NCBI GenBank assembly: GCA_025353105.1
Contig: JANXRG010000079.1
Coordinates: 1 to 62,981, forward strand
Source of the DNA: Verrucomicrobiota bacterium
Lineage (GTDB): Bacteria; Verrucomicrobiota; Verrucomicrobiia; Chthoniobacterales; SZAS-18
Direction: 5' to 3'
DNA: 62,981 bases
Position numbers and translations under genes: made by a program. Position 1 is the first letter of the stretch; each line of letters opens with the position of its first letter. Shown piece after piece: positions 30,772 to 39,565 of this stretch. A model generated the notes under the pieces. The model made no database searches. It saw nothing but the letters and a program-made list of their open reading frames with translations, and was not told the DNA's origin.

Positions 30772-31710
30772 CTATCGCCGCAGCGCTTCGAGCAGCGCAA
30801 TGAGCGCGGCGTCGCGTTCGGCTTCGAGTTCGGGCACGCTGCGCCCCGCCGCCTCATCCGCGACCCCCTCGATCATGGCGCGTTTCAAGGCATCGGTCAG
30901 CGCGGGCGTCTTCAACTCGGACCACCGCTTCAGCTGACTCGGACCGAGATGCTCGAGATAATGCGCAATGCCGCCGGGTCCGCCTCCGAGATGGTAAAGC
31001 AGATGCGGACCCATGACCGCCCAGCGCAGTCCGGGACCCGTCGTCATGGCCGCGTCAATGTCCTCCACCGACGCGATCCCCTGTTCCACGAGGCTGACGG
31101 CCTCGCGATAGATCGCGGAATTCAGCCGGTTTGCGATGTGCCCGATCACCTCTTTGCGCACCACGATTGGACGCTTGCCAAGCTGCCTGTAGAAATCCAT
31201 GGCCCAGCGCACGGCGGGGCTCTCGGGCGAATGGCCCACGAGTTCGACCAGCGGCAGCAGATGCGGCGGATTGAACGGATGCGCAACGATAATCCGCTCG
31301 GGACGGCGCGAACATTCCGCGACGATCTGGCTTCGCAAGAGGGCCGAGGTACTCGATGCAATCACCACGCTTGGATCGAGCAAGAGATCCAACTGCGCGA
31401 GCACCTGACGCTTGAGCGCTTCGTTCTCCGGCACGTTTTCCTGAACGAATTGGGCGGGTGCCAGATCGCCCATCGCAGCGGTGAGTTTCAATTCACCCCG
31501 TTGGGTGGTCGTCGCGTGCAGGCGCTGGAGCGCGGGAGTGGCGCGATCGACAAAGTCGTGGAGCCGCTCCGCGAGAGCGGGGGAGGGATCCTGCGCGATG
31601 ACGTCGAACCCATGGTGCAGATACACGGCCGTCCAGCTTGCGCCGACGGTTCCGGCGGCTCCCAGGACCGCCACCGTCTTCACCTCGTTCCGCGGAATCA
31701 ATTCGCTCAT
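30772..31710 (-). CDS. 3-hydroxyacyl-CoA dehydrogenase family, L-carnitine-dehydrogenase-like
   Basis: 312 residues, the size of stand-alone L-carnitine 3-dehydrogenases. An N-terminal Rossmann fold has VAVLGAAGTVGASWTA; the catalytic region includes ASSTSALL, VAHPFNPPHLLPLVELVG and VRKEVIGHIANRLNSA. The C-terminal domain has GPGLRWAVMGP, a hallmark of the carnitine-dehydrogenase/lambda-crystallin branch rather than of fatty-acid oxidation enzymes. It would oxidise a beta-hydroxy acid with NAD to the keto acid that BKACE cleaves. The two genes are convergent, 15 bp apart. Carnitine as substrate is inference from context and the RWAVMGP region. Confidence 0.78.
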   Translation of the reverse strand: MSELIPRNEVKTVAVLGAAGTVGASWTAVYLHHGFDVIAQDPSPALAERLHDFVDRATPALQRLHATTTQRGELKLTAAMGDLAPAQFVQENVPENEALKRQVLAQLDLLLDPSVVIASSTSALLRSQIVAECSRRPERIIVAHPFNPPHLLPLVELVGHSPESPAVRWAMDFYRQLGKRPIVVRKEVIGHIANRLNSAIYREAVSLVEQGIASVEDIDAAMTTGPGLRWAVMGPHLLYHLGGGPGGIAHYLEHLGPSQLKRWSELKTPALTDALKRAMIEGVADEAAGRSVPELEAERDAALIALLEALRR

Positions 31711-32914: not shown

Positions 32915-33742
32915 TCATAACGCCTTCGCGTCGCGATGTCGCCGGAAGCGGCGAACGCCGGCCAGCGATTTCGCCTCGAGGCGTGATGGAAACAGGAATG
33001 ACATCCACCACAGGATGCGGCCATAGCGCGGAAACACGATCACGGCGTCATTGCGCCGCACGCCGTCGAGGGTGAGGCGGGCGGCCTCTTCCGCGCTGAT
33101 CAGCTTGAAGGGGACCATGCGGCGGACCTTGTCCTGCGCGACCCCGATGGCGGTGGCATTCTCGTAGATGCGCGTGTCGATGAAGCCGGGACACAGCGCC
33201 GTGACGCGCACGCCCAGATCCCGCGCTTCGATGCGGAGATCCCGCGAGAGCGAAACGACCGCCGCCTTGGTCATCGCGTAGGGCGTGCCGGTGGGAAATC
33301 CCACGAGCCCGGACAGCGAGGAAGTATTTACAATGTGGCCAAAGCCCTGGCGCGTCATGATCGGATACGCCGCCATCACGCCGTGGATTACGCCCTTGAG
33401 GTTGATGTCGATGATGTGATTCCACTCGTCGAGCGAGACATCGCGCACATCGGCGGCGATTCCGATCCCGGCGTTGTTAAAAAGGTAGTCGATCCGGCCG
33501 TGGCGGGTGACCACGTCCTGCACGAGCGCGCCAAACGCCGCGGCATCGCGCACGTCGAGCCGGAAGGATTCCGCGCGGTCGCCGGCCGCCCGAATGGCTT
33601 CGGCCACGGTGGTCGCGGTCTCGCCGCGCGCGTCGGTGACAACCACGAAAGCCCCCTCGCGCGCCAGCGCCTCGGAGATCGCTTTTCCGATGCCGGACCC
33701 GCCGCCGGTCAGGAAGACGATCTTGTCGCGAAACTCGTCCAT
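32915..33742 (-). CDS. Short-chain dehydrogenase/reductase
   Basis: 275 residues from the ATG at 33742, 14 bp after the carboxyltransferase. A classical SDR: cofactor motif TGGGSGIGKA (residues about 12-21), NNAGIG, catalytic Ser in NTSSLSGLVG, YAMTKAA with the Tyr-x3-Lys pair, and CPGFIDT. The Asp after beta2 (VTDARG) points to NAD preference. The C-terminal extension IVFPRYGRILWWMSFLFPSR is hydrophobic then basic and may sit at the membrane. Last gene of the catabolic operon; the substrate, probably a hydroxyacyl or aldehyde intermediate, is not known. Confidence 0.88.
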   Translation of the reverse strand: MDEFRDKIVFLTGGGSGIGKAISEALAREGAFVVVTDARGETATTVAEAIRAAGDRAESFRLDVRDAAAFGALVQDVVTRHGRIDYLFNNAGIGIAADVRDVSLDEWNHIIDINLKGVIHGVMAAYPIMTRQGFGHIVNTSSLSGLVGFPTGTPYAMTKAAVVSLSRDLRIEARDLGVRVTALCPGFIDTRIYENATAIGVAQDKVRRMVPFKLISAEEAARLTLDGVRRNDAVIVFPRYGRILWWMSFLFPSRLEAKSLAGVRRFRRHRDAKAL

Positions 33743-33756
33743 GGTCGATGCCGCCG

Positions 33757-35352
33757 TCAGACCTGCATGACGCCGGAGTGGAAGCGCGCCTTGGGCGTCG
33801 GGCGACTGACCCATTCGAGGCATTTTCCGAGCACCGTACGCGTCTCGTGCGGCTGGATGATCGCATCGACCCAACCGCGGGCGGCGCCGTAACGGATGTC
33901 GGTCTGTTCCTGATACGTGCGGTGCACGCGTTCGCGCAGTTTTTCGTCCTCCTCGGGCGTGCTGACGCTGTTGCGCTTGAGCAGCGAATAGACCGTGCCG
34001 GCAGCCTGCGCGGCGCCCATCACGGCGTAGCGTGCGTTTGGCCAGGCGAAGATGAAACGCGGATCGTACGCGCGGCCGCACATCGCGTAGTTGCCGGCGC
34101 CAAACGATCCACCGATGACCACGGTGATCTTTGGCACGACGCTGTTGCTGACCGCGTTCACGAGTTTTGCACCGGAGCGAATGATGCCCGTTTGTTCGGC
34201 GTCGCGACCGACCATGAAGCCCTGCACATCCTGAAAGAAAATGATGGGCAGGCCGGTCTGGTTGCAATCCATGACGAAGCGCGCGGCCTTGTCGGCGCTG
34301 TCGGCATAGATCACCCCACCCATCTGGATGCCTTCCTTCTTGGTCCGAATTTGGAGGCGTTGGTTCGCGATGATGCCGACCGGATGTCCGCCGATTTTGG
34401 CATAGGTAGTGACCAGCGACTGGCCGTACTCGGCCTTCGATTCCAGCATCGAGTCGCGATCCACCACGCAACGAAGCATGTCGCGCGCGTCGTATTGTTT
34501 CGAGCCGTCCGGGCTGACAATGTCGTAGAGGAATTGCGGATCGCGTTCCGTGTCGTCGGCGAGCGCGATGATGGGTGGTTTGTTCGGCAACAGGTCCACG
34601 AGCGCGCGGAGCCGATCGAGGCACGAGGGGTCGTCCTTTTCACGAAAGTCCACCGTCCCGCTGATTTCCGCGTGCATCCGCGCGCCACCCAATTCCTCGG
34701 AATCGACCTCCTGGCCGATGGCCGCCTTGACCAGAGAGGGTCCCGCGAGGTAGAGCCCGCTGCCCTCGGTCATCAGAATCTTGTCGCAAAGCACCGGCAG
34801 ATACGCGCCGCCGGCGACGCAGTTGCCCATGATCGCCGCATATTGCGGCACGCCCGCGGCGGAAAGAATCGCGTTGTTGCGGAAGACGCGACCGAAGTCG
34901 TCCTCGTCCGGAAAAATTTCATCCTGCATAGGCAGAAACACGCCGGCGGAATCGACGAGATACAAAATCGGCAGTGCGCATTCAAACGCGATGCGTTGCG
35001 CGCGGATGACCTTCTTCGCGGTCTGGGGAAAGAACGCGCCCGCCTTCACGCTGGCGTCGTTCGCTGCGATCAAGCAAGGCTGACCCGAGACGCGCCCGAT
35101 TCCCGCGATGAAGCCCGCGGCCGGCGTGTCGCCCCAGTCCGGATACATCTTGTGCGCAGCCCAGAGGCCGAGTTCGAAAAAATCGTCGGGGTCGTCGAGG
35201 AGACGGGCGATGCGCTCGCGCGCGGTGAGACGGTTCAGTTTGTGGGCGCGAGCCACCGCGGATTTGCTGACCAGGCGCAGGGCCGTTTCCTCCGCGGCAA
35301 GAGTCGCGCTGACTTCGCGGAGCGTCGGTTTCGGAGCGGGAGATTTAGACAT
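33757..35352 (-). CDS. Acyl-CoA carboxylase carboxyltransferase (beta) subunit
   Basis: 531 residues from the ATG at 35352. Biotin-dependent carboxyltransferase of the propionyl-/methylcrotonyl-CoA type: ARERIARLLDD, GIGRVSGQPCLIAANDASVKAGAF, GVFLPMQ and the C-terminal half GSFGAGNYAMCGRAYDPRF, typical of the methylcrotonyl/geranyl branch. It transfers CO2 from carboxybiotin to an acyl-CoA. No biotin carboxylase/BCCP (alpha) gene is in the window, so its partner must be encoded elsewhere. Position between the 2-oxoacid dehydrogenase and an SDR suggests leucine or isovalerate oxidation, making methylcrotonyl-CoA the likely substrate. Confidence 0.88.
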   Translation of the reverse strand: MSKSPAPKPTLREVSATLAAEETALRLVSKSAVARAHKLNRLTARERIARLLDDPDDFFELGLWAAHKMYPDWGDTPAAGFIAGIGRVSGQPCLIAANDASVKAGAFFPQTAKKVIRAQRIAFECALPILYLVDSAGVFLPMQDEIFPDEDDFGRVFRNNAILSAAGVPQYAAIMGNCVAGGAYLPVLCDKILMTEGSGLYLAGPSLVKAAIGQEVDSEELGGARMHAEISGTVDFREKDDPSCLDRLRALVDLLPNKPPIIALADDTERDPQFLYDIVSPDGSKQYDARDMLRCVVDRDSMLESKAEYGQSLVTTYAKIGGHPVGIIANQRLQIRTKKEGIQMGGVIYADSADKAARFVMDCNQTGLPIIFFQDVQGFMVGRDAEQTGIIRSGAKLVNAVSNSVVPKITVVIGGSFGAGNYAMCGRAYDPRFIFAWPNARYAVMGAAQAAGTVYSLLKRNSVSTPEEDEKLRERVHRTYQEQTDIRYGAARGWVDAIIQPHETRTVLGKCLEWVSRPTPKARFHSGVMQV

Positions 35353-35475
35353 GGGAGACGCGCGTGGAAGAGATGCAAAAATGGCCAAATTCTCCAAGTT
35401 TACGAAATGGAGACGGGTCGGGAGAGGGACGATGCCGCATTTTCGCTCGGATGATTTATTGCCTGGCGTGATCTT

Positions 35476-38400
35476 TCATGACGGGGTCTCGAAGTGTTCG
35501 ACGAAGTGCTTCAAATCCTGGATGAAGGCGGCGGCACCAGCGCCGTTGATGACGCGGTGATCGAACGTGAGGGAGAGGGTGACCACCTCCTGCGGGCTCG
35601 GCCACCCACCTTCCGCGTCGCCCTGCATTTCGTAATGCGCCTCGCCAATGAAGAGCGTGCCGACCGCCGGCGGCACGAGAATCGGCTGGCCGGTGCGCAC
35701 GCCGAACCCACCGAGGCTCGTCAAAATCACGGGTGCATGAATTTCGCCGTGGAGCCGTCCGCCACGCGCTTCCTCGACCGCGAAGTTGTAGCCGCGGACG
35801 AAATCCGGCCACGGCAGCCGGTTCGACTGCGGGATCACCGCGGTGACCAGACGATCGCCATCGAGCGCAACGGCGAGACCCAGATCAAAATCATCCCACT
35901 GCTTGATCGAATCATCCGGGAGCACCTCGCGCCGGAAGGACGGCTGCTTCTCGATCGCGCGAACGATGCACCACGCGGCGATGAGTGATGGAGTGACCGG
36001 CTCGCCGCGCGACTTGGCCTGGCGGCGGGCGGCGCGAATGTTTTCGAAGCGCGCGTTCACCGTCAGATAGACGGGCACGACCTTGCCGAGCCGCTTGGTG
36101 ATCGCCGGGGACAGCGCGGGCGCGATGCCGGGTTCGTGCTCGCCGTTTGCGTGGCCGAAGCCATGCGCCGCCGGCGCGGTTTGCGCGTGTCCGCTACTCC
36201 ACACTTCGGGCGCGTCTGCGTGCACCACCGCGAGCGCCTCGCCAATTTCGACCGTGTCGCCGAGCTTGACCAGCCACTCGTGCAGAATGCCGGCGCCGGC
36301 GGCTTCCACCGGATACACGGCCTTGTCCGTTTCGAGTTCGCATAGCGGTTCGTCGGGCGTGATCGCGTCGCCCGGTTCCTTGACGAGCGCGACGACGCGC
36401 GCCGCGCGAATGCCCTCGCCGAGGATCGGAACGCGGAGCGTGATCTCGTTGGCTTGCAACGTGCGGATGGCGGGCGCGGGCGCCGAAGATGCCGCGGACG
36501 TCGTGAAGATCTGGATGTCCGGCAGACTGCGCGGGGGCGCATCCGGCAGCGCGGTCGGGGGCGGGAACGCGGCGCGAGGTTGGGGCACGTTGGCGGAGTG
36601 GGCCAGCACGGCGCGGATGGCGGCGGCGACGCGACGGGCGTCGGGCAGCGCGGCGAATTCGAGGATCGGGTTGTAACCGATCATGACGTTGCCCTTGCTG
36701 ACGAGCGCGGGTGGGGCCTGGAAGGCGGACCAGACCTCGGCCTCACCCGAAAGCGTCGCGATGATCATCTGCCCAACGCTGCAATTCTCCGTGTCCTCCT
36801 GCACGACGACGAGGCGGCCTGTGCGTTTGACGGACCGCGTCAGCGCCTCGCGATCCCACGGCACAATGCTGCGCAGATCAAAGACGTCGGCGCTCACCTT
36901 GTCGCCGAGCTGCCGCAGGGCCTCGTGACAAACCTCCACGGTATTTCCCCAGCCCACGAGGGTGAGGTCATCACCGGAGCGCAGTTGCTTGGCGATCCCG
37001 AGCGGGATCGGCACCAGCGGTTTCGAATATTCGCGTTCCACCCAAAGCAGATGTTTGGGGAGCAGTACGATCGTGGGATCGTCGGACTGCATCGCCGACC
37101 ACAACAATCCCGCGGCGTCCTCCGCGGTGCTTGGCATCACGATCTGGATGCCGGGGAAATGGGCGATCGACGCTTCGTTGGTTTGCGAATGCCAGAGCGA
37201 ACCGCCGGGCAGATACGCGCCGCACGGGGCGTACAACACGGCCGGACACGTCCACTCGCCGTTGCTGCGCCACCGCAACGTGGACCAATTCGTCACGAGC
37301 TGATTCCAGCCGGGCGCGATGAAATCAATGAACTGCAATTCAAAGACGGGACGCTTGCCGTAGCTCGCCAGTCCGATCGCGACGCCGAGAATCGTGGATT
37401 CCGCGAGCGGAGAATTGTTCACCTGCCCGGGAAAAGCTTCGGTGAGACCCTTGGTAAGCCGGAAGACGCCGCCCTTGGGATCTTCGATGTCCTGGCCGAA
37501 GAGGATTGTCCCGGGAGTTCGCTCGAGCGCCGCGCGCAAAGTGAGATTCACCGTGTCGCCCATGCGATATTTTCCCGGCGGCAGGATCGGCGCGTCGTCG
37601 AGGTGCGGGTTTCTCCCGAGCACGTCACGCTCGAGATCGTCCGGCGTCGGATCGGCCGCGCGTTCCGCCTCGGCGTATTCCGCCCGCACCCGCTCCTTGA
37701 GCTCGAGATCAAGCGCCTGGTAGGCCTCCATGGTCAGCAGTCCGTCGCGAATCATCTCGTCGCGCAAACGTAAAATCGGATCGCCCTGGTCGAGTTGCGC
37801 CATTTCCTCCGTTGAGCGGTAGAGCTTTTGATCGTCGGAGCTGGTGTGACTCGAGAGCCGCTCCATCCGCACCCACAGGAAATACGGGCCGCGCCGCGCG
37901 CGAAGGTTCTCGATCGACTCCGTCACGGCGGCGTGAACCTCGAGCACGCTGCTGCCGTCGACCTCGCGCCATTGTCCGGCATCGAGGGCACCGAGCGCGA
38001 GTGGATTGATGCTGCGCGTCCGGCTGGAGATGCCAAAGCCGTTGTCCTCGACGATGCAGAGCAGGGGAAGCGAACGCTCGATTGCGAAGCATATGGCCTC
38101 GTAGAAATCACCCTGGCGCGTGGCCGCATCGCCGATCGACGTGACGCAAAAGGACTGCTTCGCATCCATCTGCATGCCCCACGCCATGCCGCAGGCCGGC
38201 AGCAATTGCGCGCCGGTCGGGGTCGAGACGCTCCACAGGCCGAACTTCCGGTAGCTGCCGTGCGCGGGCATCTGCCGGCCGCCGGTGGAGGAATCGCGCT
38301 TGGCGAAATAATCCAGCGCGAGCTCGCGCGTCGTGACGCCGCGACCGAGCAGGACGGCGCGATCGCGGTAATACAAGCACGCCATGTCGCCGTCGCGCAT

Positions 38401-38562
38401 GGCCAGGCCGACCGTCGCCATCGCCTCGTGTCCCATGCCGGAGACATGGAAGTGGCCCTTACCCTGACGGTTTAAACTTTCCTGCCGTTGGTCGCCATGC
38501 CGGCTTTCCAGCATGACCTCGAGCAGGCGCCGTTTGTCGTCGGAAGTGGGGGAATGGCTCAT
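35476..38562 (-). CDS. Single-chain 2-oxoacid dehydrogenase: E1alpha-E1beta-lipoyl-E2 fusion
   Basis: 1028 residues from the ATG at 38562. In order: E1alpha-type ThDP domain (about 15-320; GDAATRQGDFYEA and EDNGFGISS form the cofactor loop), E1beta (about 340-660; GQDIEDPKGGVF, NNSPLAESTI, FDLRSIVPWD), a Pro/Ala linker, a lipoyl domain with the modifiable Lys in ETDKAVYP (K747), and an E2 acyltransferase (about 820-1025) with catalytic His in DHRVING (H1002). The usual Asp of HRxxDG is Asn (N1006), and no peripheral-subunit-binding domain lies between lipoyl and E2. It oxidatively decarboxylates branched-chain or pyruvate-type oxoacids to acyl-CoA; E3 must come from elsewhere. It follows the enoyl-CoA hydratase by 14 bp. 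Confidence 0.88.
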   Translation of the reverse strand: MSHSPTSDDKRRLLEVMLESRHGDQRQESLNRQGKGHFHVSGMGHEAMATVGLAMRDGDMACLYYRDRAVLLGRGVTTRELALDYFAKRDSSTGGRQMPAHGSYRKFGLWSVSTPTGAQLLPACGMAWGMQMDAKQSFCVTSIGDAATRQGDFYEAICFAIERSLPLLCIVEDNGFGISSRTRSINPLALGALDAGQWREVDGSSVLEVHAAVTESIENLRARRGPYFLWVRMERLSSHTSSDDQKLYRSTEEMAQLDQGDPILRLRDEMIRDGLLTMEAYQALDLELKERVRAEYAEAERAADPTPDDLERDVLGRNPHLDDAPILPPGKYRMGDTVNLTLRAALERTPGTILFGQDIEDPKGGVFRLTKGLTEAFPGQVNNSPLAESTILGVAIGLASYGKRPVFELQFIDFIAPGWNQLVTNWSTLRWRSNGEWTCPAVLYAPCGAYLPGGSLWHSQTNEASIAHFPGIQIVMPSTAEDAAGLLWSAMQSDDPTIVLLPKHLLWVEREYSKPLVPIPLGIAKQLRSGDDLTLVGWGNTVEVCHEALRQLGDKVSADVFDLRSIVPWDREALTRSVKRTGRLVVVQEDTENCSVGQMIIATLSGEAEVWSAFQAPPALVSKGNVMIGYNPILEFAALPDARRVAAAIRAVLAHSANVPQPRAAFPPPTALPDAPPRSLPDIQIFTTSAASSAPAPAIRTLQANEITLRVPILGEGIRAARVVALVKEPGDAITPDEPLCELETDKAVYPVEAAGAGILHEWLVKLGDTVEIGEALAVVHADAPEVWSSGHAQTAPAAHGFGHANGEHEPGIAPALSPAITKRLGKVVPVYLTVNARFENIRAARRQAKSRGEPVTPSLIAAWCIVRAIEKQPSFRREVLPDDSIKQWDDFDLGLAVALDGDRLVTAVIPQSNRLPWPDFVRGYNFAVEEARGGRLHGEIHAPVILTSLGGFGVRTGQPILVPPAVGTLFIGEAHYEMQGDAEGGWPSPQEVVTLSLTFDHRVINGAGAAAFIQDLKHFVEHFETPS

Positions 38563-38576
38563 GAAAGAAGGGGCGC

Positions 38577-39347
38577 TCAATGGTCCGCGGTCCACGCCGG
38601 TTTGCGCTTCTCGACAAACGCGCGGGATCCCTCGCGCGCTTCGTCGGAGTCACGCGTCCGCGCATGGGTTTCAAGCGCGATGGCGAAATCTTCGGCCAGG
38701 GAACGGGGGGCCAGGCGCCGGAGCAGCGCTTTCGTTTCCGCGATCGCGCCGGGTCCGCCCTCGCAGACGGCGCGCGCGATGTTCTGCGCGGTGGACTCGA
38801 GGGCGGTGGCGACGACCACGCGATGGGCGAGTCCGATTTTCTCGGCCCGCACGGCGGGGATGAGTTCGCCGACGAGCAGCAGCTCGCGCAGTTCATGCTC
38901 GCGCATCTGCCGGCGCAGGAGGGCCGCGACGAGCGCCGGGACGAGGCCGCGTTTGACCTCGGGAAATCCGATTCTGGCGTCATCGGCCATTACGACGAAA
39001 TCACAGGCGGCGGCCAGGCCGCCCCCGCCGGCCACGGCGGCGCCCTGCACGAGAGCGATCGTAATGAGCGGGCAGGTGGCTAGCGCGAGAAATACGTCGC
39101 GCACCATTTCCACCGCCTTGATCGGTTCCGCGGCGGTCTCGGCGAGATCCATGCCGGAACAGAAAACCGGGCCGGCGCCGCGCAGGACGAGCACGCGCAG
39201 CCCGGGGTCGTGGGCGGCCTCTTCCATCGCGGCCTTGAAGGCTTCAAGCAGCGGCAGATTCAGGGCGTTGCGCCGAGCGGGGCGATTGAGCGTCAGCGTC
39301 GTCATGCGACGGGCCGCATCGCGTTCGATCAGGACAGTTTGCTCCAT
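38577..39347 (-). CDS. Enoyl-CoA hydratase, methylglutaconyl-CoA hydratase-like
   Basis: 256 residues from the ATG at 39347. Crotonase fold with the CoA/oxyanion elements FCSGMDL and AAVAGGGGLAAACD and the catalytic Glu in FPEVKRGLVPA. That last string is typical of the LiuC/AUH subgroup of methylglutaconyl-CoA hydratases, though general enoyl-CoA hydratases can share it. First gene of the minus-strand catabolic operon with the E1-E2 fusion, carboxyltransferase and SDR. In leucine oxidation it would hydrate the product of methylcrotonyl-CoA carboxylase to HMG-CoA. No HMG-CoA lyase is seen here. Confidence 0.85.
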   Translation of the reverse strand: MEQTVLIERDAARRMTTLTLNRPARRNALNLPLLEAFKAAMEEAAHDPGLRVLVLRGAGPVFCSGMDLAETAAEPIKAVEMVRDVFLALATCPLITIALVQGAAVAGGGGLAAACDFVVMADDARIGFPEVKRGLVPALVAALLRRQMREHELRELLLVGELIPAVRAEKIGLAHRVVVATALESTAQNIARAVCEGGPGAIAETKALLRRLAPRSLAEDFAIALETHARTRDSDEAREGSRAFVEKRKPAWTADH

Positions 39348-39565
39348 GGTTGCGGGAAATCCGACGCGGGTGGGCAGCCGGCAAGGAACCACGACGCCCA
39401 CTCGAACGGAAAATGAAAGGCCGACGCATCGGGGGGAGACGCCAGTCCCGCGACGCTAGCGGTTGGACCGGGAGCGGCAAATGAAAAGTCGCGCGCGGGC
39501 GCCGGCGGGGGTCGCTGCGTTGACAGAGACGACCCGCACGGTAGCTTCGGCGTCTTGTCGGTTTT

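Follow-up and report, generated by a model that had tools for sequence, protein, structure and literature searches.

The window analyzed here, the whole stretch of 62,981 nucleotides from a bacterium of the Verrucomicrobiota, holds a gene at 35476..38562 of the minus strand (ATG at 38562, TGA stop at 35478-35476) whose frame of 1028 codons has no interruption. Its product of 1028 amino acids joins in a single chain the E1alpha, E1beta, lipoyl, and E2 domains of a 2-oxoacid dehydrogenase complex. All neighbors considered here lie on the same strand. Upstream, a gene of the enoyl-CoA hydratase/crotonase family (38577..39401) stops 14 bases ahead of the ATG of the fusion. Downstream there is a carboxyltransferase of the methylcrotonyl-CoA carboxylase (MCC) beta type (33757..35397, start codon uncertain), followed by an SDR-family oxidoreductase (32915..33742) and by a 3-hydroxyacyl-CoA (carnitine-like) dehydrogenase (30772..31710).

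A Pfam profile search identified five domains in the protein, all well above cut-off. E1alpha occupies residues 17-307 (37642..38514; E1_dh, E 5e-45, 154 bits for a cut-off of 22) and includes the loop SHTSSDDQKLYR at residues 238-249. E1beta occupies residues 334-645 (36628..37563), which match Transket_pyr at 334-506 (E 4e-28, 99 bits, cut-off 27) and Transketolase_C at 524-645 (E 2e-23, 83 bits, cut-off 26) and contain the invariant E388. A first linker, with disorder predicted along most of it (residues 656-703, 36454..36597), leads to the lipoyl domain (residues 708-779, 36226..36441; Biotin_lipoyl, E 7e-15, 55 bits) with its motif ETDKA around K747. A second linker (residues 785-812, 36127..36210) lies where an ordinary E2 has its peripheral-subunit-binding domain (PSBD), of which none was detected here, and precedes the E2 acyltransferase core (residues 821-1025, 35488..36102; 2-oxoacid_dh, E 2e-27, 96 bits) with the motif FDHRVING (H1002, N1006). 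The protein thus has what is expected of an E2: a lipoyl domain with a putatively lipoylatable lysine, and a CAT-like core with its catalytic histidine. In an AlphaFold2 model built from a 57-sequence alignment (mean pLDDT 83), the E1alpha, E1beta, lipoyl, and E2 parts are folded; the linkers (658-698 and 793-811) fall below 50, and no additional folded domain is seen. A preliminary description of this DNA had proposed the single frame, without naming the strand, and the same order of domains; both are borne out.

Distribution of the fusion and comparison with known systems

Scanning the GTDB species genomes yielded 80 loci, 78 of which are from Verrucomicrobia. The other two are in a Blastopirellula MAG and in an unclassified bacterium that groups with this MAG in the tree. 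Among the 69 distinct full-length proteins that could be read, E744, K747, H1002, N1006, and G1007 are invariant (69 of 69), and the alpha/beta-type E1 domains were matched by Pfam in all 44 relatives scanned. The fusion is present in 21 of 289 Verrucomicrobiota genomes, distributed over six families. Rather than the singular oddity presented initially, it is therefore a conserved family, mostly of Verrucomicrobiota with a few members in Planctomycetota. Although the source is a draft genome in 121 contigs, the idea that an assembly or sequencing error joined neighboring E1 and E2 genes is untenable for practical purposes, as the frame stays open in species with 45-70% identity and in single-contig genomes (G073, G175, G323), which excludes a sequencing frameshift or misjoin, and the 69 homologs likewise contradict a stop or frameshift splitting E1 from E2. 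Two apparently larger fusions, in frames of 1408 and 1580 codons (G232 and G221), were rejected: the extra part is upstream sequence that is open but adds no homology, and it overlaps a FadB-like gene.

All the domains of the fusion have counterparts in the branched-chain E1 (alpha2beta2; Thermus thermophilus 1um9, Pseudomonas putida 1qs0, human 1dtw) and its E2, and these E1 proteins are the best PDB sequence matches of the E1 half. The differences are that the known systems use three chains instead of one, that the fusion lacks the PSBD, and that it is short of some 30 N-terminal residues, as the match with the Thermus E1alpha begins at residue 37 of the latter. The actinobacterial OdhA/KGD proteins (PDB 8p5t, 2xt6) also join E1 and E2 in one polypeptide. 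Yet in these E2 precedes E1, the E1 is of the SucA type, the substrate is 2-oxoglutarate, and the lipoyl group is provided in trans, whereas the fusion has the order E1alpha-E1beta-lipoyl-E2, a split-type E1, and a built-in lipoyl domain. Hence, it differs from OdhA/KGD in order, in E1 type, and in the lipoyl domain. There are also E1alpha-E1beta fusions, one in the same genome (C107) and several in Planctomycetota (L144, L146, L148-L150), but unlike the protein studied here their frame does not extend to a lipoyl or E2 domain. Frames of about 810 residues with E1alpha-E1beta-lipoyl, the E2 not being in the same frame, occur at L100:1387-3834 (+) and L101:1342-3765 (+), the latter overlapped at its end by a short E2-like frame. 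The addition of lipoyl and E2 domains to a split-type E1 had been called unusual, and this agrees with our search of the literature (open-access papers), which found no described or characterized enzyme with this architecture. We conclude that the fusion is a genuine and widespread architecture of a known enzyme class, apparently undescribed in the open-access literature.

Substrate of the fusion enzyme

The E1 half is nearest to the branched-chain type. The best PDB match of its E1beta is the branched-chain E1beta of Thermus (195 bits, for 121 with human pyruvate dehydrogenase [PDH]), and its E1alpha scores 132 bits with the Thermus branched-chain E1, 97 with the Geobacillus PDH, and 83 with the human PDH. 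The E1alpha loop typically contains HSTSDD in branched-chain enzymes and HSMSDP in PDH. In the fusion it reads SHTSSDD, and in another E1alpha of the same genome (C58) it reads GHSMSDP. These resemblances of sequence and loop are supportive, though not a proof of substrate. They are joined by the gene neighbors and by the co-occurrence with the carboxylase (see below), which support the branched-chain assignment implied by the assay proposed in the preliminary description. The best explanation is thus that the fusion is probably the single-chain E1-E2 of a branched-chain 2-oxoacid dehydrogenase that uses a separate E3.

The C58 cluster matches the mitochondrial PDH, its E1beta scoring 327 bits with human PDH and 182 with the human branched-chain E1, and its E1alpha 284 and 134 bits, respectively. 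Judged by these scores, it is a separate and clear PDH of the same genome. For C111, the assignment by sequence to PDH or to the branched-chain type is ambiguous. It is very unlikely that the fusion is itself a second PDH. Its E1beta does match, with 181 bits, a Pyrobaculum enzyme labeled pyruvate dehydrogenase, and its best NCBIfam models are PDH models, all far below cut-off. However, C58 already fills that place in the genome, the E1alpha loop and the gene context indicate branched-chain substrates, and at least one other E1 is present in all eight fusion carriers without MCC that were examined.

E2 core, binding domain, and the particle

The best Foldseek match of the predicted E2 core (pLDDT 91) is the E2p of Azotobacter vinelandii. 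With VIA-align the branched-chain E2 of Mycobacterium tuberculosis (3l60/6zzn) comes top (Z 27), the first dozen rows being nearly tied. The A. vinelandii core (1eaa, 1dpb) shares the E2 fold and naturally has an Asn at the Asp position of HRxxDG, although it belongs to a separate E2 protein of a pyruvate dehydrogenase whose complex has the ordinary three components. According to the titles of PDB entries 1dpb-1dpd and to reference 71 of PMC8421416, its catalytic residues are Ser558, His610, and Asn614, and the wild-type enzyme is active. A transferase with Asn at this site can therefore be active, and inactivation of the E2 by this residue was rejected. The replacement of Asp by Asn noted initially is real, N1006 being found in all 69 homologs, but it is not the oddity it seemed. 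On the alignment, it is a trait of the subfamily and no defect. A possible loss of the E2 cage was also considered, since the usual hydrophobic end is missing from the C-terminus.

In textbook 2-oxoacid dehydrogenase complexes, a small binding domain attaches E1 and E3 to the E2 core; among E1-E2 fusions, OdhA is the one exception known to us. In the fusion protein, E3_binding has no Pfam match even at E ≤ 10. Applied to the whole genome, PF02817 picks up three further E2 genes (C58, C46, and C111) above its cut-off, so that the model works in this organism, and it does not pick up the fusion gene. No match was found at E ≤ 1 in 44 full-length relatives, and a home-made PSBD HMM found no PSBD in the fusion. 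The stretch between the lipoyl domain and the E2 core is variable among homologs (12-59 residues), and in the shortest (L086, 12 residues) a PSBD of about 35 residues would not fit. With the lack of any further fold in the AlphaFold2 model, these searches uphold the absence of the PSBD asserted in the preliminary description, which had itself named the detection of such a domain as the way to overturn it. Amid its variable sequence, the second linker carries short clade-specific motifs (e.g., in L057 and L067): HPSLQQLQ in 12 of 57 sequences, of the Opitutaceae type, a DQFEAA-like motif in 11 of 57, and FADQFETAAEVSP in sequences of the Chthoniobacterales type. As sequence motifs, these could be candidate docking contacts, which is a lead only.

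For catalysis, substrate, E3 use, and physiological role, we infer the following scheme. With thiamine diphosphate as cofactor, the E1alpha-E1beta half would decarboxylate the oxoacid and acylate the lipoyl group carried by K747. The two disordered linkers would let the lipoyl domain swing over to the E2 core within that particle, and there H1002 would assist in acyl transfer to CoA. The dihydrolipoyl group would be reoxidized by an E3 that is not part of the chain; E3 genes over the profile cut-off are indeed found away from the locus, in C99 and C58. That a covalent link replaces the docking of E1, as initially suggested, follows from the architecture, and it can reasonably be inferred that the recruitment of E3 has changed as well: since the covalent tether already holds E1, the PSBD would have been lost, and E3 would either diffuse freely or make some other contact.

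OdhA is reported to be a homohexamer in which E1 dimers are combined with E2 trimers, and it depends on lipoyl groups of E2p that E3 regenerates (PMC10415282). By analogy, a natural guess is that the E1 dimers and E2 trimers of the fusion would also close into a hexamer. Somewhat more broadly, our tentative picture, held with less than even confidence, is a self-contained E1-lipoyl-E2 chain without PSBD, whose E1 dimers and E2 trimers would fix a small dihedral or cage-like particle, E3 being reached through the clade-specific linker motifs or not recruited at all. Alternatively, the fusion might sit inside a hybrid particle together with a canonical complex, whose PSBD-bearing E2 would lend it E3 and perhaps also lipoyl domains. 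Three such E2 proteins are encoded in the genome, and the reliance of OdhA on E2p provides a precedent (PMC10415282). Unlike OdhA, however, the fusion includes a lipoyl domain, in which the Lys is invariant, and hence needs no borrowed lipoyl carrier, and we regard the hybrid particle as unlikely.

Metabolic role and relatives in Planctomycetota

The carboxyltransferase next to the fusion has its best PDB matches in AccD1 of M. tuberculosis (449 bits) and in beta chains of methylcrotonyl-CoA carboxylase (416). Most beta chains of propionyl-CoA carboxylase score about 267 bits or below, with the exception of one so named (9tps) that reaches 417, level with the MCC beta chains. A similar carboxyltransferase accompanies the fusion at 14 distinct loci, the hydratase at 20, and an HMG-CoA lyase at nine. 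Among 57 related genomes, the fusion and the carboxylase are both present in exactly the same 10 (Fisher p 2e-11, ancestry ignored), which is partly the effect of shared ancestry, as this set of close relatives comprises two families. In the sample of 289 genomes, 11 of the 12 with the carboxylase carry the fusion, and 10 of the 21 with the fusion, more distant from the source genome, have no carboxylase (E ≤ 1e-150). Hence, leucine breakdown is not the role of the fusion everywhere. Near the source genome this role is well supported, even if the linked genes do not occur in all carriers, and in carboxylase-bearing genomes the product, isovaleryl-CoA, would enter leucine breakdown. In the carriers without MCC a wider branched-chain role, such as the supply of fatty-acid primers, would be needed.

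Although the source genome (97.6% complete) has an MCC-type beta subunit, it yielded just a single biotin carboxylase (C61:34732-35052); a dedicated MCC alpha subunit is not evident there. The assembly may miss this subunit, another protein may replace it, or acetyl-CoA carboxylase may use the same one.

It is also plausible, if less likely, that the same enzyme mainly supplies branched acyl-CoA primers for the synthesis of iso and anteiso fatty acids, leucine degradation not being its main task. Verrucomicrobia commonly contain branched fatty acids, and the ten fusion genomes without an MCC-type carboxylase include genomes of 1.3 and 1.7 Mb. Against this, the gene adjoins degradation genes in the source genome and in its relatives, and its co-occurrence with the carboxylase across the 57 relatives is perfect.

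Among 244 genomes of Planctomycetota, there is a second type of fusion (L139-L141), 37-38% identical to the first, with frames of 1121-1158 residues, the lipoyl motif E-A-N-K-G instead of E-T-D-K-A, HRPFNG in the E2, and no PSBD match. In a further homologue of this type (L142:2650-6133), the E1 part and the E2 part occupy separate frames that overlap on one draft contig, by sequencing error or by a true split. Two genomes (L137, L138) have a close E1alpha-E1beta fusion and its lipoyl-E2 partner, with HRxxNG, in a separate overlapping frame. In the E1 tree, the fusions of Verrucomicrobia and Pirellulaceae all fall in one group, which also takes in the unfused L137 (support 85/84) and has L138 as its sister, and the second type groups with E1-lipoyl-KASIII proteins. 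This topology may reflect a single origin followed by fission, or else repeated fusion. A stretch such as MPPRTRKLLRDRGL..LMPADVERYL in L137 and L138 aligns with PSBDs both by eye and in a MAFFT alignment; since Pfam gives no match there and the home-made HMM reaches no more than E 0.056 with L137 and sees only noise in L138, a preserved PSBD in these proteins is a suggestion.

The most surprising by-product of the analysis is the set of single chains in Planctomycetota that join E1alpha, E1beta, and lipoyl domains with a FabH-like KASIII. These frames (L143:3627-6959 [+], L145:3677-7222 [+], and L147:3132-6773 [-]) were confirmed by Pfam in three genomes, and matches that cover most of such a protein occur in five of the 244. 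They could pass the acyl-lipoyl group directly to the initiation of fatty-acid synthesis.

Separate annotation models for E1 and E2 may miss or mislabel the fusion, whose best NCBIfam matches fall below threshold. As split-type E1, lipoyl domain, and E2 form one chain here and the binding domain is gone, the family raises the questions of whether E3 needs docking at all, which particle arises from joined E1 dimers and E2 trimers, and whether covalent tethering alters channeling. It could show an alternative assembly of oxoacid dehydrogenase complexes, and it is a candidate for the branched-chain oxoacid step of Verrucomicrobia.
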